In this document: positions 7,166 through 23,250 of the stretch, piece after piece | Position numbering within the stretch: position 1 is the stretch's first letter | Layout: every line of letters starts with the position of its first letter | NCBI RefSeq assembly: GCF_902809865.1 | Contig: NZ_CADDWH010000001.1 | Span: 806,001 to 870,000, forward strand | Origin: Halobacillus sp. Marseille-Q1614 | GTDB lineage: Bacteria; Bacillota; Bacilli; Bacillales; Halobacillaceae | Reading direction: 5' to 3' | Length of the DNA: 64,000 bases | Program-made: the position numbers and the translations under genes | Notes under the pieces: generated by a model | The model's database searches: none | The model's input: the letters and a program-made list of their open reading frames with translations, nothing else | Told to the model about the DNA's origin: nothing

Positions 7166-7225
7166 TATCTCGAAACTGAGTCTTAAAGTAAAGGGCAGGA
7201 TTGTTGAAGACTCATTTTCAAGATA
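7166..7225. repeat. Array repeat R1, short form with both ends
   Basis: TATCTCGAAACTGAGTCTT and AAGACTCATTTTCAAGATA face each other across about 22 bases and match at 17 of 19 positions. This is the first of fifteen copies of the array repeat up to 23.2 kb. It lacks the internal terminator hairpin seen in the longer copies. Confidence 0.75.
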
Positions 7226-7346
7226 TTGAACTGAAATAAGGATTATTTGTGTAATATTTGGTGTTTTGTTTATATTGTTTGTTAAACTTTTCCTGTAAAA
7301 TAGGAATTGACATTAGGGAATTTAGAAAAAGTGGGGAGGTTATAAA

Positions 7347-9611
7347 TTGATAGAAAAGATTAGTATTAAGAAAGTAGCATCCTATGATTCAACAGGAATT
7401 CAAGTTAATTTGAGTAAGATTAATTATATATACGGAAGCAATGGTACTGGAAAGACAACTATTTCTGAATTACTAAGAAATAGCGACAAACCAAAGTATT
7501 CTTATTGCAATATAGAAAGAAAACAAGAAAGTTCTGACTTTGATCTGTATGTTTATAATAGAAGTTTTGTCCAGGAAAACTTCAATATCCGTAATGAAAT
7601 AAAGGGGATTTTTACTTTAGGAAAAGAATCTACGGATATATTAGACTTAATTGATGAAAAAATGAAGGATGCTGAAAAACATCAGGGGCGGATTAGTAAT
7701 TTAGAAAATAACATAAATCAAAGAACAGAGCAGTTAGATATCTTAAAAACAAATTTTTCAAATCAATGCTGGAAATTAAAACAAAAATATGATGAAAATT
7801 TTAAAGAGGCATTTACTGGTTTACGCAATAATAGAGACAGATTTATGGAAAGGTGTATGGATGAAGCCGTAAATAATAGAAATGAACTATTTAATTTTGA
7901 AGAATTAAAAAATAGAGTAGAGTCGGTCTTTAAAGCCCCCCAAGCAAAAGTAGGAATAATTCCAACAATTAACTATGATAGTTCTTTAGAGCAACAATCA
8001 ATATTTCAAACAAAAATAATAGGTAAAAAAGATATAGATGTTGCTAGATTAATTACTAAACTAAATATAAGCGACTGGATACAACAAGGGCACATACATA
8101 TGGAGGATACAGATGGTTTATGCCCATTTTGCCAACGAGAACTTCCTGAAGGATTTAAGGAAAAGTTGGATGAATATTTTGATGAAACATATAACGAACA
8201 AATACAAAATCTTAATTCATCAATAGAAAAATATAAAAGAAATACATTTAGCTTTTTTGAAAAGTACAAATTTCTTATTAATGAAGATATCCCTTTCATT
8301 AATAAGGAAAAAATAACTTCTCTACTTGAAATTATGAAATCAACATATAACGAAAATATTCAGTTGCTTGAAAGGAAGATCAATGAACCAAGTAGAGATG
8401 TTGAGTTGAGTTCCATAACAAGCTACCTCGAGCAAATAAAATCAGAGGTAGAACAAGCAAATGAACAAATAGCAGAATTAAACAGGGTAATTGAAAATAT
8501 TAAGGAAGAAAAAGAGAGGTTAATAAAAGATATATGGCGATTTATTGTGGAAGAGAATAAAAGCCACTATGAAAATTACAAGAGTAATTTCAGAATACAG
8601 AATAGAGCTTTAGAAGGAATGAGAAAAGGTAAGGAAGTACAAAAGGACCATAAAAAAAGACTGGAAGAAGAGGTTATTGAGTTGCAGAATCAGCTTACAA
8701 GTGTTTTACCTTCCATTCATGAAATTAATACGCTTCTTAAATCCTTTGGTTTCACAAATTTTCAGTTAGCTGAATCTGATGAACAGGGTAATTACAAGAT
8801 CGTAAGAGAAAATGGCGAAGATGCGAATGAAACGTTAAGTGAAGGGGAGAAAACCTTTATTACTTTCCTATATTTTTATCAACTTATTAATGGAAGTAAT
8901 GATCAAGACAAAGTAAATACCGCAAGAGTAATTGTTATTGATGATCCAATTTCTAGCCTAGACAGCAATATACTATTTATGGTAAGTAACCTGATAAATA
9001 ATCTAAAGAAAAAGGTAAGGCGTAGTGATTCAAACTTTAAACAATTGATCATTTTGACTCACAACATTTATTTCCATAAGGAAATTTCCTTCAATAAGGG
9101 TATGAGCAATAAAAAGCAACCTGATGAATCATTTTGGATTATCAGGAAGACGGGTAATATATCTTACATTAGTAGGTACGAAGAAAACCCAATTAAGAAT
9201 TCATATGAACTACTATGGAAAGAATTACGGGAAAATCCTAATTCAATAACAACACCAAACATTATGAGAAGAATATTAGAAAACTACTTTAAGTTCTTCG
9301 GTAACGTGGATGTTAATGAAATCGTTGAAGGGTTTCCTGATGAAGAAAAGGTGGTTTGTAATTCTTTACTTTCCTGGGCTAACGATGGTTCGCATCATGT
9401 GAACGATGATTTATATATTGACAGTAATCAGGAAGCAAATCAGACTTACTTTAATATATTTTGGCGGATATTCAAAAATTCTAATCATATGTCTCACTTC
9501 AACATGATGATGAGCGAATTTGAATTTGAAAGTGAAGAAGATCCGGCTATAGATGAAGTTAGAAGCCAAATTCATGAGGCTATGGAGCAGGCTTCAGCCA
9601 GTGAGGAATAG
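7347..9611 (+). CDS. RloC/PrrC-like AAA ATPase, putative anticodon nuclease
   Basis: 754 residues from TTG 7347 behind GGGGAGGT. It is an SMC/Rad50-type ATPase of the AAA_13 group: Walker A GSNGTGKTT (30-38), long coiled coils with a CPFC zinc hook near 260, ABC signature LSEGEKT (about 497), Walker B VIVIDDPISSLD (about 530) and an H-loop LTHN. The C-terminal part has RRILE near 641 and SHH near 683. This resembles the Arg-x3-Glu...His triad of PrrC/RloC tRNA anticodon nucleases, though the Glu-His spacing is a little longer than in PrrC. Such proteins stop phage growth by cutting host tRNA. The ATPase class is firm; the nuclease call is inference. Confidence 0.7.
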   Translation: MIEKISIKKVASYDSTGIQVNLSKINYIYGSNGTGKTTISELLRNSDKPKYSYCNIERKQESSDFDLYVYNRSFVQENFNIRNEIKGIFTLGKESTDILDLIDEKMKDAEKHQGRISNLENNINQRTEQLDILKTNFSNQCWKLKQKYDENFKEAFTGLRNNRDRFMERCMDEAVNNRNELFNFEELKNRVESVFKAPQAKVGIIPTINYDSSLEQQSIFQTKIIGKKDIDVARLITKLNISDWIQQGHIHMEDTDGLCPFCQRELPEGFKEKLDEYFDETYNEQIQNLNSSIEKYKRNTFSFFEKYKFLINEDIPFINKEKITSLLEIMKSTYNENIQLLERKINEPSRDVELSSITSYLEQIKSEVEQANEQIAELNRVIENIKEEKERLIKDIWRFIVEENKSHYENYKSNFRIQNRALEGMRKGKEVQKDHKKRLEEEVIELQNQLTSVLPSIHEINTLLKSFGFTNFQLAESDEQGNYKIVRENGEDANETLSEGEKTFITFLYFYQLINGSNDQDKVNTARVIVIDDPISSLDSNILFMVSNLINNLKKKVRRSDSNFKQLIILTHNIYFHKEISFNKGMSNKKQPDESFWIIRKTGNISYISRYEENPIKNSYELLWKELRENPNSITTPNIMRRILENYFKFFGNVDVNEIVEGFPDEEKVVCNSLLSWANDGSHHVNDDLYIDSNQEANQTYFNIFWRIFKNSNHMSHFNMMMSEFEFESEEDPAIDEVRSQIHEAMEQASASEE

Positions 9612-9614
9612 AAT

Positions 9615-9639
9615 AGCATTGAAAGGAAATGCTTTTTTT
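9615..9639 (+). terminator. Rho-independent terminator after the RloC-like gene
   Basis: AGCATT-gaaagga-AATGCT stem followed by seven T residues, a few bases after the stop codon. Confidence 0.7.
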
Positions 9640-9845
9640 GTATAAAAAGAATTTGGAAGAATCATTAGTTAATTGTTAAATTATGCAGAATACCGAATAC
9701 AAATTGTAAAAGAATTAAATGAAATTTATGAAAGCATTATTAATGATCTTATATAACAACGTCGATAAAGAAAGTCTTAAAAGTGTTCTTGCTTAATTCA
9801 TTTAATTGTTTCAACAGCTTCATTGCATGATAGAGGAGGCTAGGT

Positions 9846-10706
9846 ATGGGAAGGGATGCTATTGGAAGAAAGAAAAGAAGAAGGTTAAGAAAAGAAGTTG
9901 GTTTTGGCTGCCCAGTGGAAGGGTGCAGAGTCCCATTTCTCGAATTTCATCATTTCGACCCACCTTTTAATGAAGGGAAAATGCATAACGAAGATGGAAT
10001 GATAGCTCTTTGTCCAATTCACCACAGACAAGCTGATCAAAGAGCTTGGTCAATTGAAGACCTACATGAAATGAAAAGAGCTCCTTACAGGGAAAAGCCA
10101 AAAGGTAAGTTAGGTTGGAGTATCGATGAAGGAATAGTAATATCAGGAGGTAACTATTTCTTTTCTCCTTCATTAACTATGAGAATCAAAGGAAAAGAAT
10201 TATTTAAATTAGAACAAGATCATAAAGGGAAAATTTTTGTCAATGCGCTACTTTGGAATAATAAAAAAGAAATCATAGCTGAAGTTAAAAATAACGATAT
10301 GTTAATAAATCATATGAGAGTAGAGGATATTGACTGTATGGCTTCTGGTAAAGAGATTCATTTTAAAGCTCCCGATAATTCTAATCATGTAAGAATTAGA
10401 TTCGAACAGCAATCCATTGAGAAATGCTTGGCTCAAGCAGAAAATACCTTAGATGAAAGTATTGTTGAACAAGTTTTTTCTATAATAAAAGAACGTGTGG
10501 CTAATGGAATGATAAATGTTATAAAATTTAGCAGTACTATAAGAGAAGACGACTTTATATTCCACGCCGGAGACTCTAAAATTACTTTTGATTTTAGAAA
10601 AATTGGGTTAGATAAAGCAGAATACTACGGTAGCGCTCATGGGGTCAATGGAGCACTAAATTTTAGAAAGAAGGACGGTCAAGAATTAATATATCTAGGG
10701 AAATAG
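9846..10706 (+). CDS. HNH-nuclease-like protein
   Basis: 286 residues from ATG 9846 with GAGGAGG upstream. The first 80 residues carry CPVEGC, FHHFDP and CPIHHRQAD, the Cys/His layout of an HNH (treble-clef) nuclease. The rest (about 90-286) is unlike anything I recognise and is rich in beta-type sequence (IKFSSTIREDDFIF). It could be a restriction-like or mobile-element nuclease with a C-terminal sensing domain. It sits between the RloC-like gene and array repeat R2 and may be the first cassette-like unit. Catalysis is unproven. Confidence 0.6.
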   Translation: MGRDAIGRKKRRRLRKEVGFGCPVEGCRVPFLEFHHFDPPFNEGKMHNEDGMIALCPIHHRQADQRAWSIEDLHEMKRAPYREKPKGKLGWSIDEGIVISGGNYFFSPSLTMRIKGKELFKLEQDHKGKIFVNALLWNNKKEIIAEVKNNDMLINHMRVEDIDCMASGKEIHFKAPDNSNHVRIRFEQQSIEKCLAQAENTLDESIVEQVFSIIKERVANGMINVIKFSSTIREDDFIFHAGDSKITFDFRKIGLDKAEYYGSAHGVNGALNFRKKDGQELIYLGK

Positions 10707-10805: not shown

Positions 10806-10909
10806 TATTTTGAAATCGAGTCTTCATGATAAGGGGAGCAAATCTGCAATAAAAGGGTTTGCTCTTTTTACTTAATTTGGCAAGAATCGTTGAAGACTCA
10901 GTTTCGAGA
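10806..10909. repeat. Array repeat R2, full form with terminator core
   Basis: Left end TTTTGAAATCGAGTCTTCA and right end TGAAGACTCAGTTTCGAGAA are imperfect inverted copies. Between them GAGCAAA...TTTGCTC plus TTTTT (10836-10869) forms a terminator. It separates the HNH gene from the M1 peptidase gene; the whole 10707-11031 gap has no other gene I can support. Confidence 0.8.
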
Positions 10910-11031
10910 AATTAAACTCTATATTTATATAAAGTTGTTGTTTAGTTGGAAGTTGTGTAGAAACTATATTTTGCTAACTGTTCCCTTGGTATATTGGATG
11001 TTATATATTAAAAACGAAAGGGGCAGAGTTT

Positions 11032-12414
11032 TTGAAAAAGTGTCTCTACATGATTTTACTACTAATATTATTGACTTCTTGTAACTCAATTGGTCATAAA
11101 GAAGAATTAAAAGAAAATAAGGCAGAGTTTTCTCCTATGGAACTTCCAGCAGGCAGTAAAAGTAACTATGATTTATCGCTGAGTTTAGATGAAAATGGTG
11201 AATTTAAGGTGAAAGCATCCATTGAGATCACAAATTTGTCGAAGGATGCTTGGGAGTCCCTCGTTTTCTACTTTATACCTAATATGTTCACTCAGGATAA
11301 TGCTCCTGAACTAGATAAGCCTGGGTCACTAAATGTCCAAAAAGTTTCTGTAAATGGTAAAGAGGTTAATTATTTTTTAGAGAAAGATACTTTTACAGTA
11401 CCATTAAAAGAGAAGGTTCAGTCTAAAGAAGAGAAAAACATTGAGATTACTTATTCTTTTACTCTCCCTGAAAAAGGTCATAGATATACAGAAAATGATT
11501 CAAATTATTATTTAGCTCAATGGTATCCGATGGTTCCTACATACAGAGATGGTTGGAATAAAGAAGAATATCGTTCTAAAGGAGAATCTTATCACACCAC
11601 TTTCAGTGACTTTGATTTCAGTTATAAAGTTCCAGAAGAGTATACCGTGATAACTTCAAGTGATACTGAGAACCTTCCTACACTTAAGGAACAGAAAGTG
11701 AAAGCTGAATCCGTTAAAGAATTTTACGTGGCAATCTTACGTCATCCTGAAATACTCGAGAAGGAAAAGCAAGGGGTAACAATTCGTATCTTTAGCTCAG
11801 ATCAGACTAATAGAAAGGAAGAAGTATTAGAAACAGCACTCCAAGCTCTGGATTACTTCCAAAATAAAATTGGACCTTATCCACATAAACAGTTAGATAT
11901 TATTCTCAGTGATATAGGTATGGAATACCCAGGTGTAGTGACAGTTGATAATTCGAGAGGGGTAAGAATGGAATCACTAAAGGATGAAGTCGTGCACGAA
12001 ATCGCCCATCAATGGTTTTATGGTGTCATCAACAATGACCCTTATAGAGATGCTTGGTTAGATGAAGGGTTAGCAAATTTAGCAACCTCCTTGTTTCTTG
12101 CAGACGTTGAGTCAGAAGATGTTCAGTTGCCTAATGAATTCTACCCTAATCTTCAACCCGTAAATTTACCTTTAGATCACTACCAAAAAGATTATCATAC
12201 TCAAGTATATGGGAACTCACCGATCGGTCTTTGGAATATTTTTAGGCAGCATGGAGGAAAAGAAGCAGCAGAAAACTTCCTTACAAAGTATTATTTGACC
12301 TATAAATATAAAGAAGTAAACACAGAGGAATTTACAAGGTTCCTAAATCATCAATTGGACATTAAGGATCCTTCTATTTATGATGACTGGTTACAATTAA
12401 AGCATAGCCAATAA
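11032..12414 (+). CDS. M1-family zinc metallopeptidase lipoprotein
   Basis: 460 residues from TTG 11032 (AAAGGGG upstream). The start MKKCLYMILLLILLTSC is a lipoprotein signal with lipobox LTSC, so the protein should be anchored outside the membrane. The zinc site is HEIAHQWF near residue 322 with the third ligand in WLDEGLAN about 20 residues on, as in M1 aminopeptidases. It is shorter than classical M1 enzymes and lacks a clear C-terminal ARM-type region. Substrate unknown. It forms one unit with repeats R2 before it and R3 after it. Confidence 0.8.
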   Translation: MKKCLYMILLLILLTSCNSIGHKEELKENKAEFSPMELPAGSKSNYDLSLSLDENGEFKVKASIEITNLSKDAWESLVFYFIPNMFTQDNAPELDKPGSLNVQKVSVNGKEVNYFLEKDTFTVPLKEKVQSKEEKNIEITYSFTLPEKGHRYTENDSNYYLAQWYPMVPTYRDGWNKEEYRSKGESYHTTFSDFDFSYKVPEEYTVITSSDTENLPTLKEQKVKAESVKEFYVAILRHPEILEKEKQGVTIRIFSSDQTNRKEEVLETALQALDYFQNKIGPYPHKQLDIILSDIGMEYPGVVTVDNSRGVRMESLKDEVVHEIAHQWFYGVINNDPYRDAWLDEGLANLATSLFLADVESEDVQLPNEFYPNLQPVNLPLDHYQKDYHTQVYGNSPIGLWNIFRQHGGKEAAENFLTKYYLTYKYKEVNTEEFTRFLNHQLDIKDPSIYDDWLQLKHSQ

Positions 12415-12430: not shown

Positions 12431-12550
12431 TGTCTTGAAATCAAGTGTTCATGAAATGGGAGCAATTTAGCAATAACAAACCTTCATTAGAGGGTATTTG
12501 TTGTCTTTAGTCACAAGGCGTGATTCCGGAAAGGAATTACGCCTTTTTAA
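12431..12550. repeat. Array repeat R3 with two terminator-like hairpins
   Basis: TGTCTTGAAATCAAGTGTTC opens a copy whose core has decayed (GGGAGCAATTTAGC). Further on, AAGGCGT...ACGCCTT followed by T residues makes a strong terminator. The right inverted end is not recognisable. Confidence 0.65.
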
Positions 12551-12634: not shown

Positions 12635-13144
12635 ATGAAGATTAGAAAGGCAACCGTAACAGATGCAGAGGGAGTGGCAAAAGTTCAGGTTGATAGCTGG
12701 TATTCAACTTACAAGGACATAGTACCTGAAGAGTATTTAAGGAAGATGACCTACGAAAGCCGGGAAAAAAAGTGGAAAGACATAATCTCTAAGCAGCCAG
12801 TTTTTATAGCTGAAGACAATAAGGGAAAAATAATAGGCTTCTCTAACGGCGGGCCTGAAAGGACAGGAAAGTATCCTGAATTTGAAGGAGAACTTTATGC
12901 CATTTACATATTAAAAGATCATCAAAGAAAAGGTTTAGGAAAACAGCTATTAAAGCCAATAATACAAGAACTAGAAGATCAAGGTATATATTCAATGCTT
13001 GTTTTAGTATTAGAAGACAATCATTCCCGTTTTTTTTATGAAAAAGTTGGAGCTGAAAAATTGGATATTATTGAGATTGAAGTCTCTCGGAAAAGACTAA
13101 GTGAAGTTGTTTATGGATGGAAGGATATTCGGAAAATCAAATAA
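12635..13144 (+). CDS. GNAT-family N-acetyltransferase
   Basis: 169 residues from ATG 12635 (AGGGAGGTG upstream). It opens MKIRKATVTDAEGVAKVQVDSW. The acetyl-CoA-binding motif A reads LYAIYILKDHQRKGLGKQLL (Q/RxxGxG/A), followed by a motif-B-like FFYEKVGAEK. All core GNAT elements are present, so it is likely active. The substrate cannot be told from sequence; relatives modify small molecules or protein termini. Lone unit between R3 and R4. Confidence 0.85.
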   Translation: MKIRKATVTDAEGVAKVQVDSWYSTYKDIVPEEYLRKMTYESREKKWKDIISKQPVFIAEDNKGKIIGFSNGGPERTGKYPEFEGELYAIYILKDHQRKGLGKQLLKPIIQELEDQGIYSMLVLVLEDNHSRFFYEKVGAEKLDIIEIEVSRKRLSEVVYGWKDIRKIK

Positions 13145-13157
13145 CTGATTTAACTTT

Positions 13158-13176
13158 ATTTTGAAATCGAGTCTTG
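13158..13176. repeat. Array repeat R4, left end only
   Basis: ATTTTGAAATCGAGTCTTGG matches the repeat's left end; the terminator core and right end are missing. Confidence 0.6.
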
Positions 13177-13234
13177 GAGCGTTACTGAAATTTTATGTAA
13201 TTATATTCATAAGATAAGTGAGGGGGGAGTAATA

Positions 13235-13492
13235 ATGATTTTTTTAAAAAGCACTGTTAATGAGCTAATTCCGTATGCCATTGTTTTATTGCTTGTTGTT
13301 TCTATAGAGCTAATATTTGGTTTAGGGTGGAATCTATATCTTGTTTTTATTTTTGCTATTGGTTTTTTTGCCATAATGATTATCGAAAAAATTCGACGTG
13401 ATTATAAGAAGAACTGGATTAATTTAGTAGCTGCTTTAATATTTGCTTTATTAGTTATTTGGATAGCCACAGTCTACACCAATATAATATAA
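13235..13492 (+). CDS. Small membrane protein of unknown function
   Basis: 85 residues from ATG 13235 behind GAGGGGGG. Three hydrophobic stretches are visible: about 9-26 (IPYAIVLLLVVSIELIFG), 30-48, and a C-terminal one (ALIFALLVIWIATVYT). A short basic loop (KIRRDYKKN) lies between the second and third. I do not recognise the family. It is a separate unit between repeats R4 and R5. Confidence 0.65.
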   Translation: MIFLKSTVNELIPYAIVLLLVVSIELIFGLGWNLYLVFIFAIGFFAIMIIEKIRRDYKKNWINLVAALIFALLVIWIATVYTNII

Positions 13493-13520: not shown

Positions 13521-13581
13521 TTATCTTGATACTGAGTTTTCTTTTATAGAGAGCTATCCTCCAATAAAGACGATAGCTTTT
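13521..13581. repeat. Array repeat R5 with terminator hairpin
   Basis: TTATCTTGATACTGAGTTTTC is the left end. AGCTAT...ATAGCT with T residues (13552-13581) is the hairpin. The segment from 13551 onward recurs at 21229. Confidence 0.65.
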
Positions 13582-13639
13582 GTAACTCACGGAGAAGGCT
13601 AGTTGAAGAAGGGATTTGATATTTACGAGGGGGTTTAAA

Positions 13640-14104
13640 ATGATCTTTGAGGAAATTGATATAAAGAAACATCGAGATACAGTAGTTCAATTTCGGAAAG
13701 ATTCATTTTATGTAAGTTTTGGGAATGCTATGGGGTTCGGTGAAGAAGAGGAATATTTAAGCTGGTTAGCTGAAAAAATTAGAGATTTTCCGGAAGGTTT
13801 TGTTTTAGCCAAGGAAGATGGTAAATATATCGGACAACTTGAATTAACTATACGTGAATACGAAGGCAATAAAATTGGGTATGTAAATTTGTATTATTTA
13901 ACACCCGAAATGCGTGGCCAGGGTAAAGGGAAAACTTTACACCACTACGCTAAGCAATTCTTTAAAAACAATGAAGTTAGTGAGTATCATCTAAGGGTTT
14001 CTCCATCAAATAACAACGCGATCAAGTTTTATCGTACAATCGGAATGGATGAAGTCGGTACAGAAGTTGATGGAAAAGTAATTAGGATGAAAGGTTATTT
14101 ATAA
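13640..14104 (+). CDS. GNAT-family N-acetyltransferase, copy A of a duplicated unit
   Basis: 154 residues from ATG 13640; GAGGGGG lies eight bases upstream, and the in-frame start 24 bases earlier has no ribosome site. The acetyl-CoA-binding motif is LYYLTPEMRGQGKGKTLHHY and the C-terminal NNNAIKFYRTIGM is typical of the fold. The protein is identical to the one at 21318-21782. The match extends from 13551 to about 14157 with only about three differences after the stop, so the whole unit was copied recently. Substrate unknown. Confidence 0.85.
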   Translation: MIFEEIDIKKHRDTVVQFRKDSFYVSFGNAMGFGEEEEYLSWLAEKIRDFPEGFVLAKEDGKYIGQLELTIREYEGNKIGYVNLYYLTPEMRGQGKGKTLHHYAKQFFKNNEVSEYHLRVSPSNNNAIKFYRTIGMDEVGTEVDGKVIRMKGYL

Positions 14105-14150: not shown

Positions 14151-14222
14151 ATATCTTGACATCAAGTCTTCCGTAAATGGGAGCAAATCTGCAATAGAAG
14201 GGTTTGCTTCTTTTCCTTTATT
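14151..14222. repeat. Array repeat R6 with terminator core
   Basis: ATATCTTGACATCAAGTCTTCC is followed by GAGCAAA...TTTGCTTC and a T-rich run. The right inverted end is not clear. Confidence 0.7.
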
Positions 14223-14320
14223 ATGGGCAGGTAAGTCTCAACTCCAACGAATCTCTACATTATAGAATTTATATTGAATATTGTAGTTATAAGGTTGTAT
14301 ATTTTATTAGAGGTGATTAT

Positions 14321-14800
14321 ATGTATTGGTTTCTCATACAACTCTGTATTTCGCTGTCCTTATTAGTTTTTTCCACTTTTGTCACGTGGTATGAGGGAAG
14401 TGCATTATTAGAGAATCCTTGGGAATGGGAGTATTCCACTCCTTTTTCAGAGCGTCTCCATGAAAACATACATAGTGATGAGCAAATATCACAGTTAGAT
14501 TACTTTGTATATGCTGCAAAATTTCATCCAACGTTTCCAACTATTATGGCCATTAGTAGTATTTATCTAATTTTATTAATCGGATATCAATTCTTAAAAG
14601 CACACATTAAAAAGTTAACTTTATACTTATCTCTTTGGGGTATTATATTTTTGGCAACTAGCTTTTTTATAATGAACTCACCTACTTCAGGAGGGAAAAT
14701 ATTTACTTCTATTTACATGGTAAGTGGAGTTCTATGTTTCTCTATAGTTGGCTTTACTTTTTTTAAAAGAACTCATAAACCATCAGCTGAAAAAGTGTAA
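14321..14800 (+). CDS. Membrane protein of unknown function
   Basis: 159 residues from ATG 14321, chosen because TTAGAGGTGAT precedes it; the longer frame from 14204 runs back into repeat R6. It has an N-terminal helix (LIQLCISLSLLVFSTFVTW), then a soluble loop of about 60 residues, then three hydrophobic segments toward the end (IMAISSIYLILLIG, LTLYLSLWGIIFLATSFFI, SIYMVSGVLCFSIVGFTFF). Four helices in all. No family recognised. Separate unit between R6 and R7. Confidence 0.65.
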   Translation: MYWFLIQLCISLSLLVFSTFVTWYEGSALLENPWEWEYSTPFSERLHENIHSDEQISQLDYFVYAAKFHPTFPTIMAISSIYLILLIGYQFLKAHIKKLTLYLSLWGIIFLATSFFIMNSPTSGGKIFTSIYMVSGVLCFSIVGFTFFKRTHKPSAEKV

Positions 14801-14860
14801 ATATCTTGAGTTCAAATATTCAAGTTTATGGGGCTATTGTTTAATAGAGCATTACCCCTT
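14801..14860. repeat. Array repeat R7, diverged
   Basis: ATATCTTGAGTTCAAATATT keeps the left end; the core shows GGGG...CCCC with a following TTTCTT. It starts directly at the stop codon of the membrane gene. Confidence 0.55.
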
Positions 14861-14927: not shown

Positions 14928-15353
14928 ATGAAAATAACTCAACAATGGAATCAAGAAGACAGTAATTATATTCGTAAAAAGGTAATTGAACACAATCTTT
15001 CTAAATTACCAGATGAAGTAAAACACCCAGTCAAGAACATTAGCTTTATGCTTCGAAATGAAGAGGAGAAAATTTTAGGTGGCATTACTGGAAGGATTTT
15101 TTGGTATAACTTACATATTGAATTCTTATGGGTTGATGAATCTCTTAGAGGAAAAGGCTACGGAAAACAGTTATTAGATAATATAGAGGAAATAGCAAGA
15201 GAGAATAGATGCAACCTCATTCAACTAGATACATTTAGCTTTCAAGCCCCAAATTTCTATCAGAAATATGGTTATGAAATAGTAGGTGTAATAGAAGATC
15301 ATCCTAATAATAATAATCAACAGTATTATCTTTCCAAGAAACTGGCTTATTGA
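14928..15353 (+). CDS. GNAT-family N-acetyltransferase
   Basis: 141 residues from ATG 14928 with TATGGAGG upstream. The acetyl-CoA motif is [20 protein letters not shown], followed by [16 protein letters not shown]. It resembles small single-domain GNAT enzymes of Bacillus and is unlike the other two kinds in this array. All key elements are present. The target is unknown. Single unit flanked by R7 and R8. Confidence 0.85.
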
Positions 15354-15382: not shown

Positions 15383-15462
15383 TTGAAGACTTCCCAAGAC
15401 ATATCTCGAAATTGAGTCTTAAAGTAACGGGGGGCAAATCTTGAATAAGACATGCGTTTTTT
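15383..15462. repeat. Array repeat R8
   Basis: A right-end-like GTTGAAGACTT lies just before a full left end ATATCTCGAAATTGAGTCTT (15401-15420). GGGGGGCAAATCTTGAATAAG follows. The two ends adjoin in the reverse of the usual order, as if two copies had met. Confidence 0.65.
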
Positions 15463-15519
15463 GTATGGGGAAAGGTCATTTTATGAATAAATACAATCTG
15501 AACAGGAATGGGGACTTGT

Positions 15520-16362
15520 ATGACTGAAATTAAAGAAATAGGATCTTTATGTTCTTTAGACGACAAAGGCTATATCATAAACCAGTCTGATTACAAAAAT
15601 ATCAACAAGAAATTCAGAGAAGTCATCCAACTTATAAAGGAAAGCTGTCTTTACGCTTTACCAAAGGAAATTCACAGCATTTACATAAGAGGTTCTGTGC
15701 CAAGAGGGTTAGACATTGAAGGTGTATCGGATGTGGACGCAATAATTGTAACCTATTCCAATCCTCAAGAACTTGACTTGGATTGGGTTGAGGAGACGGA
15801 ACAATTTATTGATCAAAAATTCTCTTTTATCAACGGTGTAGAATTAGGATTCAGCCCTTTAAGTGAGGTTGAGGTGTTGAAATATTGCTCTATGATCCCC
15901 TTTATTCTAAAAACCTATGGTATTTGTGTTTATGGCGAAAACCTAATAAGTAAGCTCCCTGATTATAAACCCGACAGCTCCCTGGCGAATGAACACCTCA
16001 TTCACTTAACATCTCTGATTAATAAGGCCAAGCATGATTTAACAGGAAATGACGATATTGAGGACATTAAGGATTGCTGTTCTTGGATCATGAGAATTAT
16101 TGTGAGGGCTGGTGGTGCGCTTGTCATTGTTCGAGAACAATCGTACACAAGGGATCTATACCCAGCCTATAAACTATTTTCGAAGCACTATCCAGAAAAA
16201 GAGCATGAGATGAGAACAGCCCTTTGGTACGCAATCAACCCCTTATCAAGTCCAGAAGAAATATTAAAATTCTTGAATTGCTTTGGCAGTTGGATTGAGA
16301 TGGAAACAGAAAATTGGCTTGATATTTATAACCCGAAAAAAGAAATGCACCTGCCGCTTTGA
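15520..16362 (+). CDS. Nucleotidyltransferase-domain protein
   Basis: 280 residues. ATG 15520 is preferred; the ATG twelve bases earlier lies in the ribosome site. The polymerase-beta-type motif is IRGSVPRGLDIEGVSDVDAI, i.e. GS-x-x-RG then DxD, the metal-binding pattern of aminoglycoside adenylyltransferases and similar enzymes. The C-terminal half is helical. It could add a nucleotide to a small molecule or a protein. It may share a transcript with the MazG-like gene downstream, since no array repeat separates them. Confidence 0.75.
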   Translation: MTEIKEIGSLCSLDDKGYIINQSDYKNINKKFREVIQLIKESCLYALPKEIHSIYIRGSVPRGLDIEGVSDVDAIIVTYSNPQELDLDWVEETEQFIDQKFSFINGVELGFSPLSEVEVLKYCSMIPFILKTYGICVYGENLISKLPDYKPDSSLANEHLIHLTSLINKAKHDLTGNDDIEDIKDCCSWIMRIIVRAGGALVIVREQSYTRDLYPAYKLFSKHYPEKEHEMRTALWYAINPLSSPEEILKFLNCFGSWIEMETENWLDIYNPKKEMHLPL

Positions 16363-16443
16363 TTAAAACGAAGGCACCGTCGATTAAGCTGCTTTTTTTA
16401 TAAATAGTTTATAAGACAAATAAGATTAAAAGTGAGGATTCGT

Positions 16444-16788
16444 ATGAAACAATTAACATTCGGTGAGCTACAGAACTACCTAGCACTAAAATATACAGAA
16501 GAACGCACTTCATCTGGTTTATTTATGAAACTAGTAGAAGAGATCGGGGAGGTAGCAGAGGCACTAAACCAGTTAGAAGGTCGGAAGGAAAATTCAGATG
16601 ATGCTTCTTTAGAAAAAGAGTTAGTTGATGTTATACACTACGCAGTGTCAATTGCGAGTATAAATGATATTGATTTAACAAAAGCCATTATAAAAAAGGA
16701 TAAACAAGCTGCAATTAAATATAATCAATCTCCAAATTTAGAAGAATTTTTAGTAGTAGAGAATAAAGAACATTATTTTGAAAAATAG
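16444..16788 (+). CDS. MazG-like nucleotide pyrophosphohydrolase
   Basis: 114 residues from ATG 16444, with AGTGAGG at good spacing; a GTG start 12 bases earlier is less likely. The pattern LVEEIGEVAEAL (ExxE) and LVDVIHYAVSIA (ExxD-type) is the metal-binding four-helix core of MazG-like enzymes. They hydrolyse nucleoside triphosphates to monophosphates, often as house-cleaning enzymes. It is a single-domain form. It lies 81 bases after the nucleotidyltransferase gene. Confidence 0.75.
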   Translation: MKQLTFGELQNYLALKYTEERTSSGLFMKLVEEIGEVAEALNQLEGRKENSDDASLEKELVDVIHYAVSIASINDIDLTKAIIKKDKQAAIKYNQSPNLEEFLVVENKEHYFEK

Positions 16789-16842: not shown

Positions 16843-16905
16843 TTATCTCGAAGTCAAGTTTTCTAGTAAGGGAGCGATAGTTAAACAGTAGCCTTCGCTT
16901 TTTAA
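16843..16905. repeat. Array repeat R9
   Basis: TTATCTCGAAGTCAAGTTTTC is the left end. GGGAGCGA...TTCGCTTTTT makes a diverged terminator core. Confidence 0.65.
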
Positions 16906-16954
16906 ATAACGAAGTAGGATAGTTTAATGAGAGAGCAGAGAGGTGAGCAATAAA

Positions 16955-17719
16955 ATGTTTAAATGGACTCCTAATAAGTTTACTAACGAAGATAGACTCA
17001 AAACTGCTTATAAAATATTGAAAAATTTGAAAGGTAGATATAAAGACTCATTAATTTCAGTTGCAGTTGAAGGGTCAACAGCTAAAGGGTTGGATGCACC
17101 AGAATCAGACTTAGAGTTAAGAGTACTTTTGGATAAAGACTTTAATTATCATAGGTGGTATGCATTCTTTTATGAAGGTATGTTTGTAGGGGTTAGCTAT
17201 AATTCTGTTTCCAGAACCTTAGAGGCTTCCAAAGTGATTGATTATGAATGGTCAATAAGTGGCGATAACTTGGAAACTGCTGAAGTAATCTTTGACCCGC
17301 ATTATATTTATGATGATCTGAAGGTAAATAATAAGTTTGCTGAGCAAAATGCAAATTTTAACGAACTAATAGTGGAGGCTATCACGGATATGTATGAACA
17401 TATCTATAAAGTTTTTACATTGTCATCTACAAATTACATAGGTATTACTCAGGAGGTAACCAATATAGCTTATTGGTCAGCATTAACGGTTGGTTTAGCT
17501 AACAGATATAAATATAAATCAAATAAAAATATGGTTGAAGAGAGCTTCGTATTGAATAATATACCAGAAAATTATGAACTAAATATAAGAAGCTTGTTTT
17601 TAAATGCACAGTTGAATGATATCCAAAGTGCTGTGAGTAATTTATGGGTAACTTTTGATAACTGGGCTTATCAGGAGTTTGGAATAAATTTAAATGATGA
17701 CAAATTACAATATATTTAA
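16955..17719 (+). CDS. Kanamycin-nucleotidyltransferase-like protein
   Basis: 254 residues from ATG 16955 (GAGGTGA upstream). The active-site pattern is VEGSTAKGLDAPESDLELRV, with GS and DxE as in ANT(4')-type kanamycin nucleotidyltransferase. The second half also follows that family: LANRYKYKSNKNMVEES, then LNAQLNDIQSAVSNLWVTF and a closing YQEFGI. The relation to ANT(4') is recalled from memory and is distant. It may adenylylate an aminoglycoside or something else; resistance is an inference. Single unit between R9 and R10. Confidence 0.7.
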   Translation: MFKWTPNKFTNEDRLKTAYKILKNLKGRYKDSLISVAVEGSTAKGLDAPESDLELRVLLDKDFNYHRWYAFFYEGMFVGVSYNSVSRTLEASKVIDYEWSISGDNLETAEVIFDPHYIYDDLKVNNKFAEQNANFNELIVEAITDMYEHIYKVFTLSSTNYIGITQEVTNIAYWSALTVGLANRYKYKSNKNMVEESFVLNNIPENYELNIRSLFLNAQLNDIQSAVSNLWVTFDNWAYQEFGINLNDDKLQYI

Positions 17720-17755
17720 AATTATGGGTGAGTAAGTAAAAGATTAATTGATTAT

Positions 17756-17860
17756 ATCTCGAATTCGAGTCTTCCACAAAAGGGGGCAAATCTGTAACAA
17801 AAGGGTTTGCTCCTTTTATTTATTATTTAGGCAGGTTTAAGGAAGACTTGAATTCGAGAT
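17756..17860. repeat. Array repeat R10, best complete copy
   Basis: Left end ATCTCGAATTCGAGTCTTCC (17756-17775) and right end GGAAGACTTGAATTCGAGAT (17841-17860) match as inverted repeats at 19 of 20 positions. Between them GGGGGCAAA...TTTGCTCCTTTT forms the terminator. This 105-bp copy best defines the element. Confidence 0.85.
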
Positions 17861-17930
17861 GAATTGAACATGATAAAATAAATTTGAGAAGTGCAACCCC
17901 AAAATAAATTAAAGTAAAGGTAGTGAAAAT

Positions 17931-18410
17931 ATGGATGATTTTCTACCAATAAAAGAAGACCTAGCTTTAATAAGAACTGAAAAAATGACATTTAAGCAGT
18001 ACAACTCCATTCATTCTTATCCAGTTTATAATGTTCAATCTTTTTTCAATGCTATCAATAAACTTACTTATGAAAGGGTCCTAATAGGAGGAGAAGTGAA
18101 CAATAGTTTTTATAATGAAGAAGAGGTGAATTTTAATTTTGAATCAAAAAAGACATTCTCTTTGAATAAATCAAAGAAATATCTTGAATTAATTTTTAAC
18201 AAAAATGATTTCATTAAAGAATTTGATTTAATTAACCAAATTTACTTATTAACCGAAATAAATGATTTTTTCTTTTTGGTTTTAAATCCGATAAAAGGAA
18301 AAAAATACTATGACGTGTTAAGTGAAAAAGTTAGTGTTGAGATAGATGGAGAACACGAAAGAATACTGTGGTTTGAATATGATGCCACTGATATCTATGT
18401 TGCAAGTTGA
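17931..18410 (+). CDS. Protein of unknown function
   Basis: 159 residues from ATG 17931 (GGTAGTG upstream, weak). It is AT-rich and acidic with many aromatic residues, has no signal peptide or membrane helix, and shows no motif I recognise. Its size and lone placement between R10 and R11 fit the other cassette-like units. An immunity-type or small enzyme role is possible but nothing in the sequence proves it. Confidence 0.6.
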   Translation: MDDFLPIKEDLALIRTEKMTFKQYNSIHSYPVYNVQSFFNAINKLTYERVLIGGEVNNSFYNEEEVNFNFESKKTFSLNKSKKYLELIFNKNDFIKEFDLINQIYLLTEINDFFFLVLNPIKGKKYYDVLSEKVSVEIDGEHERILWFEYDATDIYVAS

Positions 18411-18424: not shown

Positions 18425-18532
18425 TGTCTCAATTTCGATAAATCGATAAAAGGGAACAAATCTGTAAAAAAGGTTTGTTCCCTTTTACTTATGTTTAAGA
18501 TGTCATCTGAAAGGTTTGGTTACGAGATATAT
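18425..18532. repeat. Array repeat R11 with strong terminator
   Basis: TTTGTCTCAATTTCGATAAA is a diverged left end and GGTTACGAGATATATT a diverged right end. The core GGGAACAAA...TTTGTTCCC plus TTTT (18452-18487) is a perfect nine-base stem. Confidence 0.7.
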
Positions 18533-18678: not shown

Positions 18679-18936
18679 ATGAGTAATAATAGGATTGAGA
18701 AGTTAAGGAAAAAAGCTTCACTCGTGAAGCAGATAGATGCCCCTTCAATATTAGCCGTTGATTTAAATGACATTCTTGAAAGTAATATAAAAGTAACGAA
18801 GTTGATAGATGAAATAGATTCATTAGACAAAAAAGATGAATTAGAAGATCTTTTAATTAACTTGGAAATTGAATTAGATCACATAAACTGGCATTATAAA
18901 AGCTTTAAAAAACAATTAAGTAAGTTATATGAATGA
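18679..18936 (+). CDS. Small helical protein of unknown function
   Basis: 85 residues from ATG 18679 with AAGGAGGG upstream. The sequence is charged and probably all helical, likely coiled coil (ILAVDLNDILESNIKVTKLI then ELEDLLINLEIELDHINW). No motif recognised. It is 47 bases upstream of the SprT-like gene with no repeat between, so the two may be one operon and one unit. Confidence 0.6.
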   Translation: MSNNRIEKLRKKASLVKQIDAPSILAVDLNDILESNIKVTKLIDEIDSLDKKDELEDLLINLEIELDHINWHYKSFKKQLSKLYE

Positions 18937-18983
18937 AATTAGTTAAAAACCTTTGGAAAAAATAGAAACCCCAGGGTGATGAA

Positions 18984-19409
18984 ATGGTTAGAAATGAAAA
19001 TCGAATAGGTTTAAGGATAAGAAGCGATAAAGAAGTAAATAGCGCAGTAAGAGAATCCTGTATTAATTTCGCTAAATGGCTTCGAACAACTCAGGAATTC
19101 CCGATTAGGGTTGTGGTATATCTTAAGAAAGATTCTATTTTAAAAACAATAGAAATAGAAGAGTTTGCAAGTGCTACATTTTTTGCTCCTTCCAATAAAA
19201 CACATGAGCCATATATAAGAATAGCCACAGGTGATTATGAACAGTTGGTATCTGATAGGGGAGAAATAGATGCATTATGGGCAATTTTAAAAAGTATGGC
19301 TCATGAACTAGTGCATTATCATCAATGGATTAATGACAAATATTTTGATGAGGATGAGGCGGAAAGGCTGAGTGAATATTTGTTGGATGAATTTGCAGAA
19401 ACTCTTTAG
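18984..19409 (+). CDS. SprT-like zinc metalloprotein
   Basis: 141 residues from ATG 18984 (GGGTGATGAA upstream, weak). The motif MAHELVHYHQWI is HExxH with a further His, and an acidic C-terminal helix (DEDEAERLSEYLLDEF) could supply another ligand. It resembles small SprT/WLM-like metallopeptidases. The substrate is unknown. It probably works with, or at least is co-transcribed with, the preceding helical protein. Confidence 0.6.
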   Translation: MVRNENRIGLRIRSDKEVNSAVRESCINFAKWLRTTQEFPIRVVVYLKKDSILKTIEIEEFASATFFAPSNKTHEPYIRIATGDYEQLVSDRGEIDALWAILKSMAHELVHYHQWINDKYFDEDEAERLSEYLLDEFAETL

Positions 19410-19457: not shown

Positions 19458-19480
19458 TCATCTCAGTTTCAAGTTATCAA
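19458..19480. repeat. Array repeat R12, partial
   Basis: CATCTCAGTTTCAAGTTATC resembles the left end; no hairpin follows. It abuts the truncated acetyltransferase copy. Confidence 0.45.
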
Positions 19481-19542
19481 TTTTGTAACTAACGGAGAAG
19501 GCTAGTTGAAAAAGGGATTTGATATTTACGAGGAGGTTTAAA

Positions 19543-19806
19543 ATGATCTTTGAGGAAATTGATATAAAGAAACATCGAGATACAGTAGTTCAATTTCGGA
19601 AAGATTCATTTAATGTAAGTTTTGGGAATGCTATGGGGTTCGGTGAAGAAGGGGAATATTTAAGCTGGCTAGCTGAAAAAATTAGAGATTTTCCGGAAGG
19701 TTTTGTTTTAGCCAAAGAAGATGGTAAATATATCGGACAACTTGAATTAACTATACGTGAATACGAAGGCAATAAAATTGGGTATGTAAATCCATGGATT
19801 ATGTAA
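19543..19806 (+). pseudogene. Truncated copy C of the duplicated GNAT gene
   Basis: The first 83 or so codons match the acetyltransferase at 13640 and 21318 with a few substitutions (FNVSF for FYVSF, EEGEY for EEEEY). Similarity begins near 19481, in the leader, and stops abruptly at 19791 after GTAAAT, before the acetyl-CoA-binding motif. Five unrelated codons and a stop follow. It cannot be an active enzyme. It differs from copies A and B more than they differ from each other, so it is the older event. Confidence 0.8.
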
Positions 19807-20016: not shown

Positions 20017-21024
20017 TTAGCTTTGATTTACTTTTGAGATTTCTAAAAGAAATTTTTCATTATCAACAATTTTCACTCCTGTATAGTAGTGTTGAATAAT
20101 TTCTTGATATGTTTTCCCGGATTTCGCCATACCATTCGCCCCATATTGGCTCATTCCTACCCCATGACCATATCCTTCAGAAGAAATGACAATGTGGTCC
20201 CCTTTCTTTTTCCAATGAAAGTCAGATGAAGGTAAATTAAGTTTCTCTCTAATTTGTTTACCCGTTAATTCTTTCCCGTTTAACGTTACCTGGCGTACAC
20301 GGTCTCCGTTAGTCCTTTCCGATATGGAAGCTTCTAAATCAGGCTCTTGTTCGAGGTCAACACTAAGTTTTTCTTCGAAGACAGATACCGGTATAACTGT
20401 TTGATTAGAAGCTTTAGGAGAATCCTTGTCCCATGGACTTTCTACACTTCTAAGGTATGGAAGTTCTGCTGACCAATAATCCTCTGAATTCTCAGTAAAA
20501 CCATTACTTGTAGAAAAGTAAGACGCTGTAATTAAACGATCTTCATAAACGATTACTTGCCCTTGGGTATCATGAACGGCCTCTTTTATTTTATTGATTT
20601 TTTGGATATAGTTCGCGCCCCATTTTTCTTTTAAATCTGCTGTACTACTAAACACTTGGTGAGTGACTGTGTCTGTTACATCGGCTTTTTGGGGAACTGA
20701 GTGGTCTGGATTTAGCAATAATGAGGTAATATACGTTCTCGCACTGAGTGCTTGTGCTTTCAAGGCTTCCTTCTCAAATTCTTCTGGCATTTCACTAGCA
20801 ACTACACCAACTACATAATGTTCTAAAGGGAGTTTTTCTACCACATCTTTTTGAGTACGATAAACACTTACTTCAGTTGATTGGTCTAGTATAATAGTTT
20901 CATCTATACTATTATTTTCTGTCTTCTCTGTAGTTGTCTGGCTTACTTCGTGCTCTTGGGGATTTACATAAGGAACTACGACAGCAGTTGGCAAGATTAC
21001 TATTAATGATGTCATTATTAACAT
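20017..21024 (-). CDS. SpoIID/LytB-domain protein (stage II sporulation protein D homologue)
   Basis: 335 residues from ATG 21024. It carries SpoIID hallmarks: ASEMPEEFEKEALKAQALSA near residue 92 and the C-terminal GYGHGVGMSQYGANGM. SpoIID is a membrane-anchored lytic transglycosylase needed for engulfment during sporulation. The N-terminal hydrophobic stretch is short here. Reading on upstream gives IKPISILYF in frame, ending at ATA 21051, which has an ideal GGAGGGGG six bases away, so the true start may be a rare ATA codon. Alone among cassette-region genes it is on the minus strand and has no spoIIQ or murAA neighbour, suggesting a paralogue. Confidence 0.8.
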   Translation of the reverse strand: MLIMTSLIVILPTAVVVPYVNPQEHEVSQTTTEKTENNSIDETIILDQSTEVSVYRTQKDVVEKLPLEHYVVGVVASEMPEEFEKEALKAQALSARTYITSLLLNPDHSVPQKADVTDTVTHQVFSSTADLKEKWGANYIQKINKIKEAVHDTQGQVIVYEDRLITASYFSTSNGFTENSEDYWSAELPYLRSVESPWDKDSPKASNQTVIPVSVFEEKLSVDLEQEPDLEASISERTNGDRVRQVTLNGKELTGKQIREKLNLPSSDFHWKKKGDHIVISSEGYGHGVGMSQYGANGMAKSGKTYQEIIQHYYTGVKIVDNEKFLLEISKVNQS

Positions 21025-21197: not shown

Positions 21198-21258
21198 TTA
21201 TCTTGAATTTAAATCTTCCGTTATTGGGGAGCTATCCTCCAATAAAGACGATAGCTTT
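21198..21258. repeat. Array repeat R13 with terminator hairpin
   Basis: TTATCTTGAATTTAAATCTTCC is the left end; GGGGAGCTAT...ATAGCT follows. From 21229 the sequence equals that after R5. Confidence 0.65.
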
Positions 21259-21317
21259 TGTAACTCACGGAGAAGGCTAGTTGAAGAAGGGATTTGATAT
21301 TTACGAGGGGGTTTAAA

Positions 21318-21782
21318 ATGATCTTTGAGGAAATTGATATAAAGAAACATCGAGATACAGTAGTTCAATTTCGGAAAGATTCATTTTATGTAAGTTTTGG
21401 GAATGCTATGGGGTTCGGTGAAGAAGAGGAATATTTAAGCTGGTTAGCTGAAAAAATTAGAGATTTTCCGGAAGGTTTTGTTTTAGCCAAGGAAGATGGT
21501 AAATATATCGGACAACTTGAATTAACTATACGTGAATACGAAGGCAATAAAATTGGGTATGTAAATTTGTATTATTTAACACCCGAAATGCGTGGCCAGG
21601 GTAAAGGGAAAACTTTACACCACTACGCTAAGCAATTCTTTAAAAACAATGAAGTTAGTGAGTATCATCTAAGGGTTTCTCCATCAAATAACAACGCGAT
21701 CAAGTTTTATCGTACAATCGGAATGGATGAAGTCGGTACAGAAGTTGATGGAAAAGTAATTAGGATGAAAGGTTATTTATAA
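21318..21782 (+). CDS. GNAT-family N-acetyltransferase, copy B of a duplicated unit
   Basis: 154 residues, identical in protein sequence to the product at 13640-14104, with the same ribosome site (GAGGGGG) and ATG 21318. The acetyl-CoA motif EMRGQGKGKTLHHY is present. The shared segment runs from 21229 to about 21835 and is bounded on both sides by array repeats (R13 and R14), exactly as copy A is bounded by R5 and R6. This boundary pattern is the best sign that units move or duplicate as wholes. Confidence 0.85.
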   Translation: MIFEEIDIKKHRDTVVQFRKDSFYVSFGNAMGFGEEEEYLSWLAEKIRDFPEGFVLAKEDGKYIGQLELTIREYEGNKIGYVNLYYLTPEMRGQGKGKTLHHYAKQFFKNNEVSEYHLRVSPSNNNAIKFYRTIGMDEVGTEVDGKVIRMKGYL

Positions 21783-21828
21783 GATTTCATATTGTACTAG
21801 GGTATGCATTAGTTAACATTTTATAAAA

Positions 21829-21870
21829 ATATCTCGAAATCAAGTCTTCCATAATTGGGAGCATTTCTTG
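21829..21870. repeat. Array repeat R14, left end
   Basis: ATATCTCGAAATCAAGTCTTCC followed by GGGAGCATTTC. No terminator stem or right end. Confidence 0.65.
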
Positions 21871-21908
21871 AGTAAACATATACAAGAACATCACAGGGGA
21901 GATAATAA

Positions 21909-23162
21909 ATGACTAAAGGATTATATGAATTTATAAGTGAAGCAGAGTTAAAAAAGTATGCAGAACTTGCTGTGCGAGCTGGAGTAAATCTGCAAAAACA
22001 TCAATTGTTGATTATTCATAGTGATATACAAAATGCTACGTTTGCCCGTCTAATCCAAACGGTAGCCTACGAGGCAGGGGCTTCAAATGTATTTATAGAT
22101 TGGAAAGATGAACAGGCTGCCAAAGAATTTTACTTAAATGCAACAGATGATGCCATCGATCACTTTCCTGATTGGCAGGCTGCCCGTTTCAAGGAATGGG
22201 AAGATGGAGGTGCTGCTTACATACATATTATTTCTGAAAACTTAGATGTCTTCGAGGAGGTTTCTACAGACAGGATAAATCGTTATCTAAAGGCTTCTCG
22301 TACGAAATTGAAGGACCATCATGCAAAAATCAGATCCCATGAGGTACGTTGGTGTCTTATAGCTGTACCTTCTTTTGAATGGGCTTCGAAAGTATATCCT
22401 CACGTAAGTAAAGAAGAAGCCGTGCAATCGTTATGGCAAGCGATCTTAAGTGGAGCGCGGGTAGATGGAACAGATCCTATCAAAGACTGGGAAAATCATG
22501 ACCGTGCCTTCGATTCTCGAAAAAAGATCCTCAACGAGAGCCAATTTGAAGCCCTGCATTTTACAAATAGCCGTGGAACTGATTTGTTCGTTGGTCTACC
22601 TAAAAATCATCTTTATATCGGCGGGGGTGTCATAGATAAAAAGGGAATACCTTTCTTTCCGAACATTCCTACGGAAGAAGTATTTACGGCTCCCCATAAA
22701 AATAAGGTGAATGGAAAATTGGTAGGTACTAAACCTCTTGTCTATGGGGGAAGTGTCATCGATGAATTTCATCTAATTTTTCAAGATGGAAGGATTACCG
22801 ACTATTATGCCGCAAAGGGACAGGATGTGTTACAGGATCTCATCGAAACAGATGAAGGTTCTCATTATCTAGGTGAGATTGCCTTGGTCTCTAATAAATC
22901 TCCTCTTGCTCAGATAGATACCCTTTTTTACAATAACCTGTTTGATGAAAACACGTCCTGTCATATTGGAATCGGAAATGCATCTCCCTCCAATATTCAA
23001 AATGGTGTTGACCAAACTGAGGAAAAGTTGAAGGCGGCGGGTCTAAATGCTTCACTTTTGTTAGTCAATGTGACTTTTGGTACCGAAGATATGAAAGTAG
23101 TGGGGATTGAAGAAGGTGGAACTGAAGTCCTGCTAATGAAGGATGGGGATTTCCAATTCTAA
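21909..23162 (+). CDS. M29-family aminopeptidase (AmpS/PepS type)
   Basis: 417 residues, the usual length for thermophilic-type M29 aminopeptidases. ATG 21909 follows AGGGGAGA. Family features include the opening LKKYAELAVRAGVNLQKHQ, the region PFFPNIPTEEVFTAPHKNKV with a metal-binding Glu, LGEIALV with a second Glu, and the final histidine region around FDENTSCHIGIGNA. It is a cytosolic metal-dependent exopeptidase. It appears complete. Bacillus genomes carry such genes in the chromosome, so this could be a captured copy. Confidence 0.85.
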   Translation: MTKGLYEFISEAELKKYAELAVRAGVNLQKHQLLIIHSDIQNATFARLIQTVAYEAGASNVFIDWKDEQAAKEFYLNATDDAIDHFPDWQAARFKEWEDGGAAYIHIISENLDVFEEVSTDRINRYLKASRTKLKDHHAKIRSHEVRWCLIAVPSFEWASKVYPHVSKEEAVQSLWQAILSGARVDGTDPIKDWENHDRAFDSRKKILNESQFEALHFTNSRGTDLFVGLPKNHLYIGGGVIDKKGIPFFPNIPTEEVFTAPHKNKVNGKLVGTKPLVYGGSVIDEFHLIFQDGRITDYYAAKGQDVLQDLIETDEGSHYLGEIALVSNKSPLAQIDTLFYNNLFDENTSCHIGIGNASPSNIQNGVDQTEEKLKAAGLNASLLLVNVTFGTEDMKVVGIEEGGTEVLLMKDGDFQF

Positions 23163-23210
23163 ATCGTCTTCAACTTAAAAACAGAGAAAACTGAGTTGGA
23201 AATCTGTTTC

Positions 23211-23250
23211 AATATCTCGAAATCAAGTCTTCTGTTGTTGGGGAGCTTTA
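23211..23250. repeat. Array repeat R15, last copy before the ICE regulatory region
   Basis: ATATCTCGAAATCAAGTCTTC followed by GGGGAGCTTTAGTTG. Left end only. It marks the right limit of the array. Confidence 0.65.

Follow-up and report, generated by a model that had tools for sequence, protein, structure and literature searches.

Genes and repeats of the window

The window analysed here is a stretch of 64,000 nucleotides from Halobacillus sp. Marseille-Q1614 (contig NZ_CADDWH010000001.1, positions 806,001 to 870,000), numbered from its first letter. Between 7.2 and 23.3 kb it carries an array of genes with copies of one repeat between them, every copy on the plus strand. Comparison with related sequences makes it probable that these repeats are recombination sites joining gene cassettes, and that a dedicated XerA-like integrase would carry out exchange at their core. 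An earlier note on this DNA had counted fifteen copies, and the same number was recovered. A sliding scan of the window, with a clear copy defined as a plus-strand match having at most three mismatches to the left end of the repeat, gave 13 copies (starting at 7166, 10806, 12431, 13157, 13522, 14152, 14802, 15402, 16844, 17755, 21199, 21830 and 23213), and a position-weight scan returned the identical set. Two decayed copies lie at about 18427 and at 19458, the latter with six mismatches in the left-end scan. Three single-base shuffles of the window yielded no match with three or fewer mismatches on either strand.

The array opens with a 60-bp palindrome in an attI-like position (7166..7225; plus strand, like every array feature below unless stated otherwise), made of an arm, the centre GGGCAG and an inverted arm, and referred to here as the head. 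Behind it lie the first cargo gene, for an AAA_13 ATPase (7347..9611; PF13166), and a gene with an HNH motif recognized by eye and no Pfam match (9846..10706), whose relatives occur in the arrays of two other genomes (86% in locus L142, 77% in L153; loci are designated L and genomes G). A long complete site follows (10806..10911), in which the arm, the centre GGGGAGC, a terminator-like hairpin and the inverted arm succeed one another. Next come an M1 peptidase-like gene (11032..12414; PF01433), a site (12431..12463; left-end and position-weight scans), GNAT1 (12635..13144; a cassette also found, next to other genes, in L018 and L019), a site that has lost its spacer (13157..13182), a gene for a small hydrophobic protein (13235..13492; judged by eye from the open reading frame (ORF) list) and another site (13522..13554). 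The first copy of GNAT2 (13616..14104; identified by Pfam, 89% in L082) and its site (14152..14184) are followed by a second hydrophobic protein gene, also judged by eye, whose start at 14315 was chosen within the ORF 14204-14800 (14315..14800), a site (14802..14834), GNAT3 (14928..15353), for which an identical protein is found in L160, from another genus, and a site (15402..15436). The next interval is shared by a nucleotidyltransferase-like gene (15508..16362; 90% in L159 and 81% in L165, with sites on both sides in each) and a MazG gene (16432..16788; PF03819), the latter with about 86% DNA identity to nine Staphylococcus and Mammaliicoccus plasmids.

Beyond the site at 16844..16875 lie a kanamycin-nucleotidyltransferase-like gene (16943..17719; PF07827) and the second long complete site, R10 (17755..17861). 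The inverted ends around a hairpin that had been described for R10 are present; the site at 10806-10911 follows the same plan and the head a shorter form of it. The part of the array that includes the decayed sites holds a gene of unassigned function (17931..18410; ORF list), the first decayed site (18427..18470), two further unassigned genes (18679..19409, of which 18984-19409 has no Pfam match), the second decayed site (19458..19480) and a third, truncated GNAT2 copy (19519..19806). A SpoIID-like gene on the minus strand (20017..21024; PF08486) comes after this truncated copy, and an inverted repeat is seen at 19879-19933. The array ends with a site (21199..21232), the second full GNAT2 copy (21294..21782), a site (21830..21862), an M29 aminopeptidase gene (21909..23162; relatives of 73-85% in five other loci) and the last site (23213..23246), next to a transposon end. 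The SpoIID-like gene is the exception among 17 listed genes, the other 16 being on the plus strand, in line with the strand bias noticed before. The gene names previously proposed mostly agree with Pfam, which recognized three GNAT types, the kanamycin nucleotidyltransferase (KNTase), MazG and the M1 and M29 peptidases; the NTP_transf_2 match fell slightly below its cut-off. Inspection of the ORF list likewise bore out that the array ORFs of the window include no integrase. A search of the window for tRNA genes found none.

A transposon as carrier

The array of the window looks like the cargo of a single IS1595-type transposon spanning 6771-23343, to judge from its boundaries, which go beyond what the earlier note had described. 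A left terminal inverted repeat (6771..6800, plus strand), similar to repeat ends in L183, L174 and L029, and a right one (23316..23343, minus strand) enclose the array and are themselves flanked by an identical 8-bp target duplication, AATAAAAA (6763..6770 and 23344..23351). The transposase is reduced to a 79-amino acid remnant with an internal deletion (6815..7054, plus strand). This remnant has no Pfam match of its own and was recognized by comparison with the transposase at L018:783-1835(-), which matches PF12762 and NF033547. Locus L183 holds the same kind of IS1595 unit, with a single cassette and the duplication AAAGAATT. In the same genome, L173 has the tnp gene, the head and the first cassette in common with L183; after the core of that cassette L183 continues with the transposon end and L173 with different DNA, in which no further site occurs within 1.4 kb beyond the first cassette. 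Of the 44 host-family genomes, 10 have an IS1595 transposase match, so that this transposon is one carrier among several.

Structure and distribution of the sites

Sites were surveyed in 57 loci (1.1 Mb), chosen for containing sites or integrases. The position-weight scan found 595 arm matches, with a core behind the arm in 392 (score 17 or more). The spacing between arm and core is 7 nucleotides in 315 of these 392 sites, and the consensus of 375 sites reads TATCTcGAaaTC.AGTCTTcaa.aAA.GGGGGC|gaTt.Tt.AAtAa. As read from its sequence, the core corresponds to the 5' stem of a hairpin that resembles a terminator, and inverted boxes surround it, most clearly in relatives, in the arrangement TTATTCAACTAA - 8 bp - TTAGTTGAATAA. 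Complete sites take two forms, short 60-bp palindromes centred on GGGCAG and longer ones, mostly of 90-118 bp, in which the hairpin separates the two arms. At a laxer score of 14 the list of arm pairs comes to 77 (29 short, 48 longer), some of them counted twice. Set against 392 core sites, these pairs place both inverted ends in a minority of copies.

Intervals between sites within arrays (293 in all) have a median length of 800 bp, and their ORFs of at least 80 amino acids are polarized, with 313 on the site strand and 43 on the opposite one, as in the co-oriented cassette arrays of integrons. All 44 genomes of the host family, from six genera, have site matches at an E value of 0.01 or better, their number per genome ranging from 2 to at least about 136. 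In a sample of 249 genomes from the order, 56 had a match at E 1e-4, ten of them from the host family. In the window genome itself, contig C2 (L009) bears another array.

Eleven of 365 cores are directly followed, after GGGGGC, by the start of a group II intron (L018:10911, L082:14355, L083:251, L083:19223, L091:15026, L093:12954, L093:17187, L102:14905, L141:7705, L158:7636 and L165:16300), and a 615-amino acid reverse-transcriptase-like frame with a YADD motif lies behind the intron start in 7 of the 11 stretches.

Position of neighbour changes

Pairs of sites with one flank alike and the other different were drawn from the 365 distinct sites, and intron-affected pairs were left out, which reduced the same-downstream pairs from 51 to 20 and the same-upstream pairs from 38 to 36. 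In the latter, mean identity is 0.75-1.0 across the 27 positions before the core, drops to 0.33 with the first base behind GGGGGC and stays background-like from there on. The same-downstream pairs give the mirror image: identity is close to background up to the core and 0.85-1.0 starting with the first base behind it. Because every site has the core conserved, exchange can be placed in or at the core and no more finely. Individual cassettes behave accordingly. The GNAT3 cassettes of the window and of L160, in another genus, encode the same protein and match at the DNA level from core to core, with unrelated flanks; the GNAT1 cassette has differing neighbours in three species. The GNAT2 duplication within the window and one cassette present twice in L018 are single cases of neighbour change at or near the core. 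Among 11 loci with GNAT1 relatives, two have arrays and two (L021, L022) one weak site match each; the remaining seven have no site match at up to four mismatches.

These comparisons speak for the separate cassette-capture system that had been put forward as one option: neighbours change at or near the core, and the same cassette has differing neighbours in related arrays. A conserved gene order, named in advance as the counter-case, was not seen: the neighbours of those shared cassettes that were examined had changed. The other option, a spread of terminator-bearing elements, holds only in part, in that the core supplies the 5' stem of a hairpin of terminator type; the hairpin itself moves with the cassette end.

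The data also fit poorly with a dispersed repeat unrelated to gene movement, of the type of miniature inverted-repeat transposable elements (MITEs) or REP elements, even if homologous recombination between copies shuffled the intervening genes. Such a repeat would account for sites outside large arrays (L010:8346, L011:9265), for the inverted ends of complete sites and for the breakpoint intervals that lie off the core in 9 out of 35 close pairs (93% identity or more in the shared flanks), the other 26 touching it. Unlike in a MITE, however, the right arm is absent from most copies, the arrays have a polarity and a head site, and a recombinase adjoins the head. This distinctly improbable explanation was rejected because mean identity switches at the core and not along the repeat of about 50 bp.

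The head palindrome

Short palindromes mark one end of the arrays. Within 5 kb of 27 of them (two duplicate rows left out; several loci stop short of 5 kb), no cassette site lies on the 5' side and 70 lie on the 3' side, where 24 of the 27 have at least one. Twenty-eight heads were aligned, with folded single-strand recombination of the attC kind in mind; 87.4% of their pair cells are standard pairs. Pair cells changed on both sides number 32, against 21.8 in shuffles and above all 500 of them, but pairs changed on both sides do not stand out, numbering 10 against 8.2, a value reached by 74 of the 500 shuffles.

What lies upstream of the head varies: an IS1595 transposase or its remnant (L018 and the window), an integrase (L102, L141, L142, L143) or ordinary chromosomal genes (L082, L094, L095, L097). 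In L096 (268-8071) a three-gene set, whose order we take to be that of tnpA-tnpB-tnpC in Tn554, precedes the head, and merR/merA-like genes with one cassette site follow it. In the C2 array of the window genome, a serine resolvase gene (L009:8029-8604) is divergent from the head at L009:8811 and lies about 200 bp before it. The placing of the transposase remnant and of this resolvase beside heads could suggest that one or the other moves the cassettes. This is most improbable, as IS1595 occurs in 10 of 44 genomes against 44 of 44 for the sites, its terminal repeats are unlike the core, and heads are also found behind Tn554-like and ordinary chromosomal genes. The resolvase, seen at one array, was set aside as a mover.

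A probable dedicated integrase

The earlier note had suggested looking for a recombinase consistently linked to the repeats, and relatives do carry a dedicated one next to the head site. The representative, P0001 (L102:9137-9979), is a XerA-like tyrosine recombinase of 280 amino acids whose best curated model is NF040815 (XerA; 218 bits, cut-off 220). Intact host-family copies (66% identity or more) were found in 4 of 44 genomes, with 83-100% identity. All four stop 78-101 bp short of the head palindrome, next to an attI-like site as in integrons, and read towards it, co-directional with any array; in L143 an intact integrase and a head are present, but no array follows. Broken pieces of the gene occur in G001, G002, G007, G018 and G040, several of them beside sites. 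In a tree of 41 sequences, which contains no IntI sequence, the 27 integrases cluster together (72/93; recovered in 74% of bootstrap trees), and 11 Xer sequences are separate from them (100/99). Residues R138, K162, H229, R232, H255 and Y264, presumably the catalytic residues of the tyrosine recombinase family, are invariant in all 27.

Outside the host family the association takes another form. Within families f36, f10 and f20 a site lies within about 1.6 kb of 7 of 10 intact integrase copies, and in f36 and f10 the gene stands among cassette sites instead of next to a head. In G117, G249 and G210 it is between or beside sites whose centre is mostly GGGCGC, and in G138 and G166 the sites read TCGGAGC. 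Relatives in other families have a core without an arm nearby; core-like repeats exceed all five shuffles at 9 of 20 such loci and are clearest around L216, L219, L223, L229 and L230. Integrase relatives at 44-54% identity (L145, L146, L147) have phage-tail-like surroundings, as judged by eye, and no sites. Of the 249 genomes sampled from the order, 61 have an integrase match at E 1e-50, phage-type relatives included.

Host XerC/XerD might be thought to move the cassettes, as in the pdif modules of Acinetobacter plasmids, where genes lie between short dif-like sites. Among the 44 host-family genomes, 43 contain Xer-type matches to the integrase (the fragmented G030 has a phage-type relative only), dif-like inverted boxes flank a short centre in the core, and the dedicated integrase is often missing. 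Yet the sole match to a dif pattern (C1:1290218, two mismatches) differs from the cassette core, and the dedicated integrase is beside sites and in a tree group apart from Xer, which makes this explanation quite unlikely. The cassette arrays differ from pdif modules, which they resemble in the two inverted boxes, by their dedicated recombinase, by direct-orientation sites with an extra arm and by their length, in Bacillota. The integrase differs from XerA and the archaeal Xer proteins, its best curated match, by its linkage to cassette sites and its position in the tree apart from host XerC/XerD.

Two other recombinases were set aside as movers, a tyrosine recombinase just before the window (L012:14926-15960), which we read as belonging to an adjacent integrative element as its integrase, and a 199-amino acid recombinase (L011:3634-4233).

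Comparison with integrons and a possible mechanism

To judge from its organization, the array would work like an integron, with an integrase score and a site plan of its own. The sites of integrons, attC, consist of R''-L''-L'-R' boxes and are cleaved at G^TT. That the arrays might be a divergent branch of classical integrons is suggested by the mostly one- or two-ORF cassettes in one orientation, the head site, the tyrosine recombinase, the large arrays, the clusters without an integrase and the 11 introns placed exactly after GGGGGC, which recall the group IIC-attC introns. The boxes of some relatives also match, by eye, the consensus RYYYAAC / GTTRRRY, such as ATTCAAC and GTTGAAT in L230. 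Such descent is nevertheless unlikely. The integron-integrase model TIGR02249 gives 95.6 bits, well below its cut-off of 265, and the solved IntI4 aligns with the enzyme over residues 209-267 only. The sites have the order arm, GGGGGC, box, and neighbours change in the centre between the boxes, not at G^TT. Moreover, the integrase is co-directional with the array, reading towards the head, or stands among array sites in f36 and f10. IS1595-family transposons with passenger genes share with the window unit the transposase remnant, the terminal repeats and the 8-bp duplication, but here the passenger is a cassette array and not a set of fixed genes.

Comparison shows the sites and their polarity, the places where neighbours change, the sharing between genera, the adjacency of the integrase and the limits of the transposon; the mechanism of an integrase-mediated exchange, as follows, we infer. 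A cassette would begin directly behind one GGGGGC core and extend as far as the next, with the upstream arm at its 3' end. The enzyme, the XerA-like integrase found beside the head in relatives and missing from the window genome, would cut and rejoin within the core, between the inverted boxes. Two cores on one molecule would release a circle, and a circle and a core would be rejoined, perhaps as double-stranded rather than folded single-stranded substrates. The arm would hold the cassettes in a single orientation, with the 60-bp palindrome as the array head. In the window genome the array sits inside the IS1595-family transposon, its transposase now broken. This genome is without an integrase relative beyond two Xer-type matches, and therefore, unless the enzyme comes from elsewhere, the array can probably no longer move.

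Several observations weigh against such a mechanism. The integrase search of the window genome gave those two Xer-type matches only, and intact integrases in 4 of 44 genomes, with broken ones in five more, face sites in 44 of 44. Three intact f10/f20 copies (L226, L233, L234) have an arm-type site more than 4 kb away or none, and at 11 of 20 other-family integrase loci core-like repeats do not rise above shuffles. Heads are intact although insertion at the head centre should split them. For single pairs the breakpoint estimates scatter more than the averages do, with an overlap of interval and core in 38 of 56 cases, and the off-core intervals among the close pairs belong here as well.

We lean slightly towards a still wider reading, an order-wide second cassette-capture system, independently assembled, in which a XerA-like recombinase would use dif-like cores in double-stranded form, their centres differing by lineage (GGGGGC here; GGGCGC and TCGGAGC elsewhere), with array heads and with the integrase itself a cassette in some genera. 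Genes are apparently exchanged by the system's own recombinase, not by that of classical integrons. A 2022 survey of complete genomes reports for Firmicutes only a single complete integron (Limnochorda pilosa) and a few integrase-less clusters (PMC9024848). Among the titles and abstract openings returned by searches of the open-licence literature, a scope that excludes most subscription papers and all preprints, none gave an account of such arrays in Halobacillus, Pontibacillus or Bacillota. If the proposal is right, Bacillales have large cassette arrays of their own, which attC-based tools would probably miss; acetyltransferases, nucleotidyltransferases, peptidases and unknown genes would be passed between genera, and the role of integrons in Proteobacteria would be filled in Bacillota. 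It becomes testable whether cassette capture arose more than once, and the short defined core may provide a recombination tool.

Other features

In three genomes (L011:9265, L142, L143) a groEL-like gene has a site or an integrase island downstream of it. The Rfam search of the window gave a single match, a group II intron (RF00029, 36412-38361) with a reverse-transcriptase frame, in a region of conjugation genes. An IS21-type gene pair, recognized by eye, is present at two places in the genome, window positions 1154-3479 and L011:5600-7925, and the L011 copy seems to interrupt a transporter gene.

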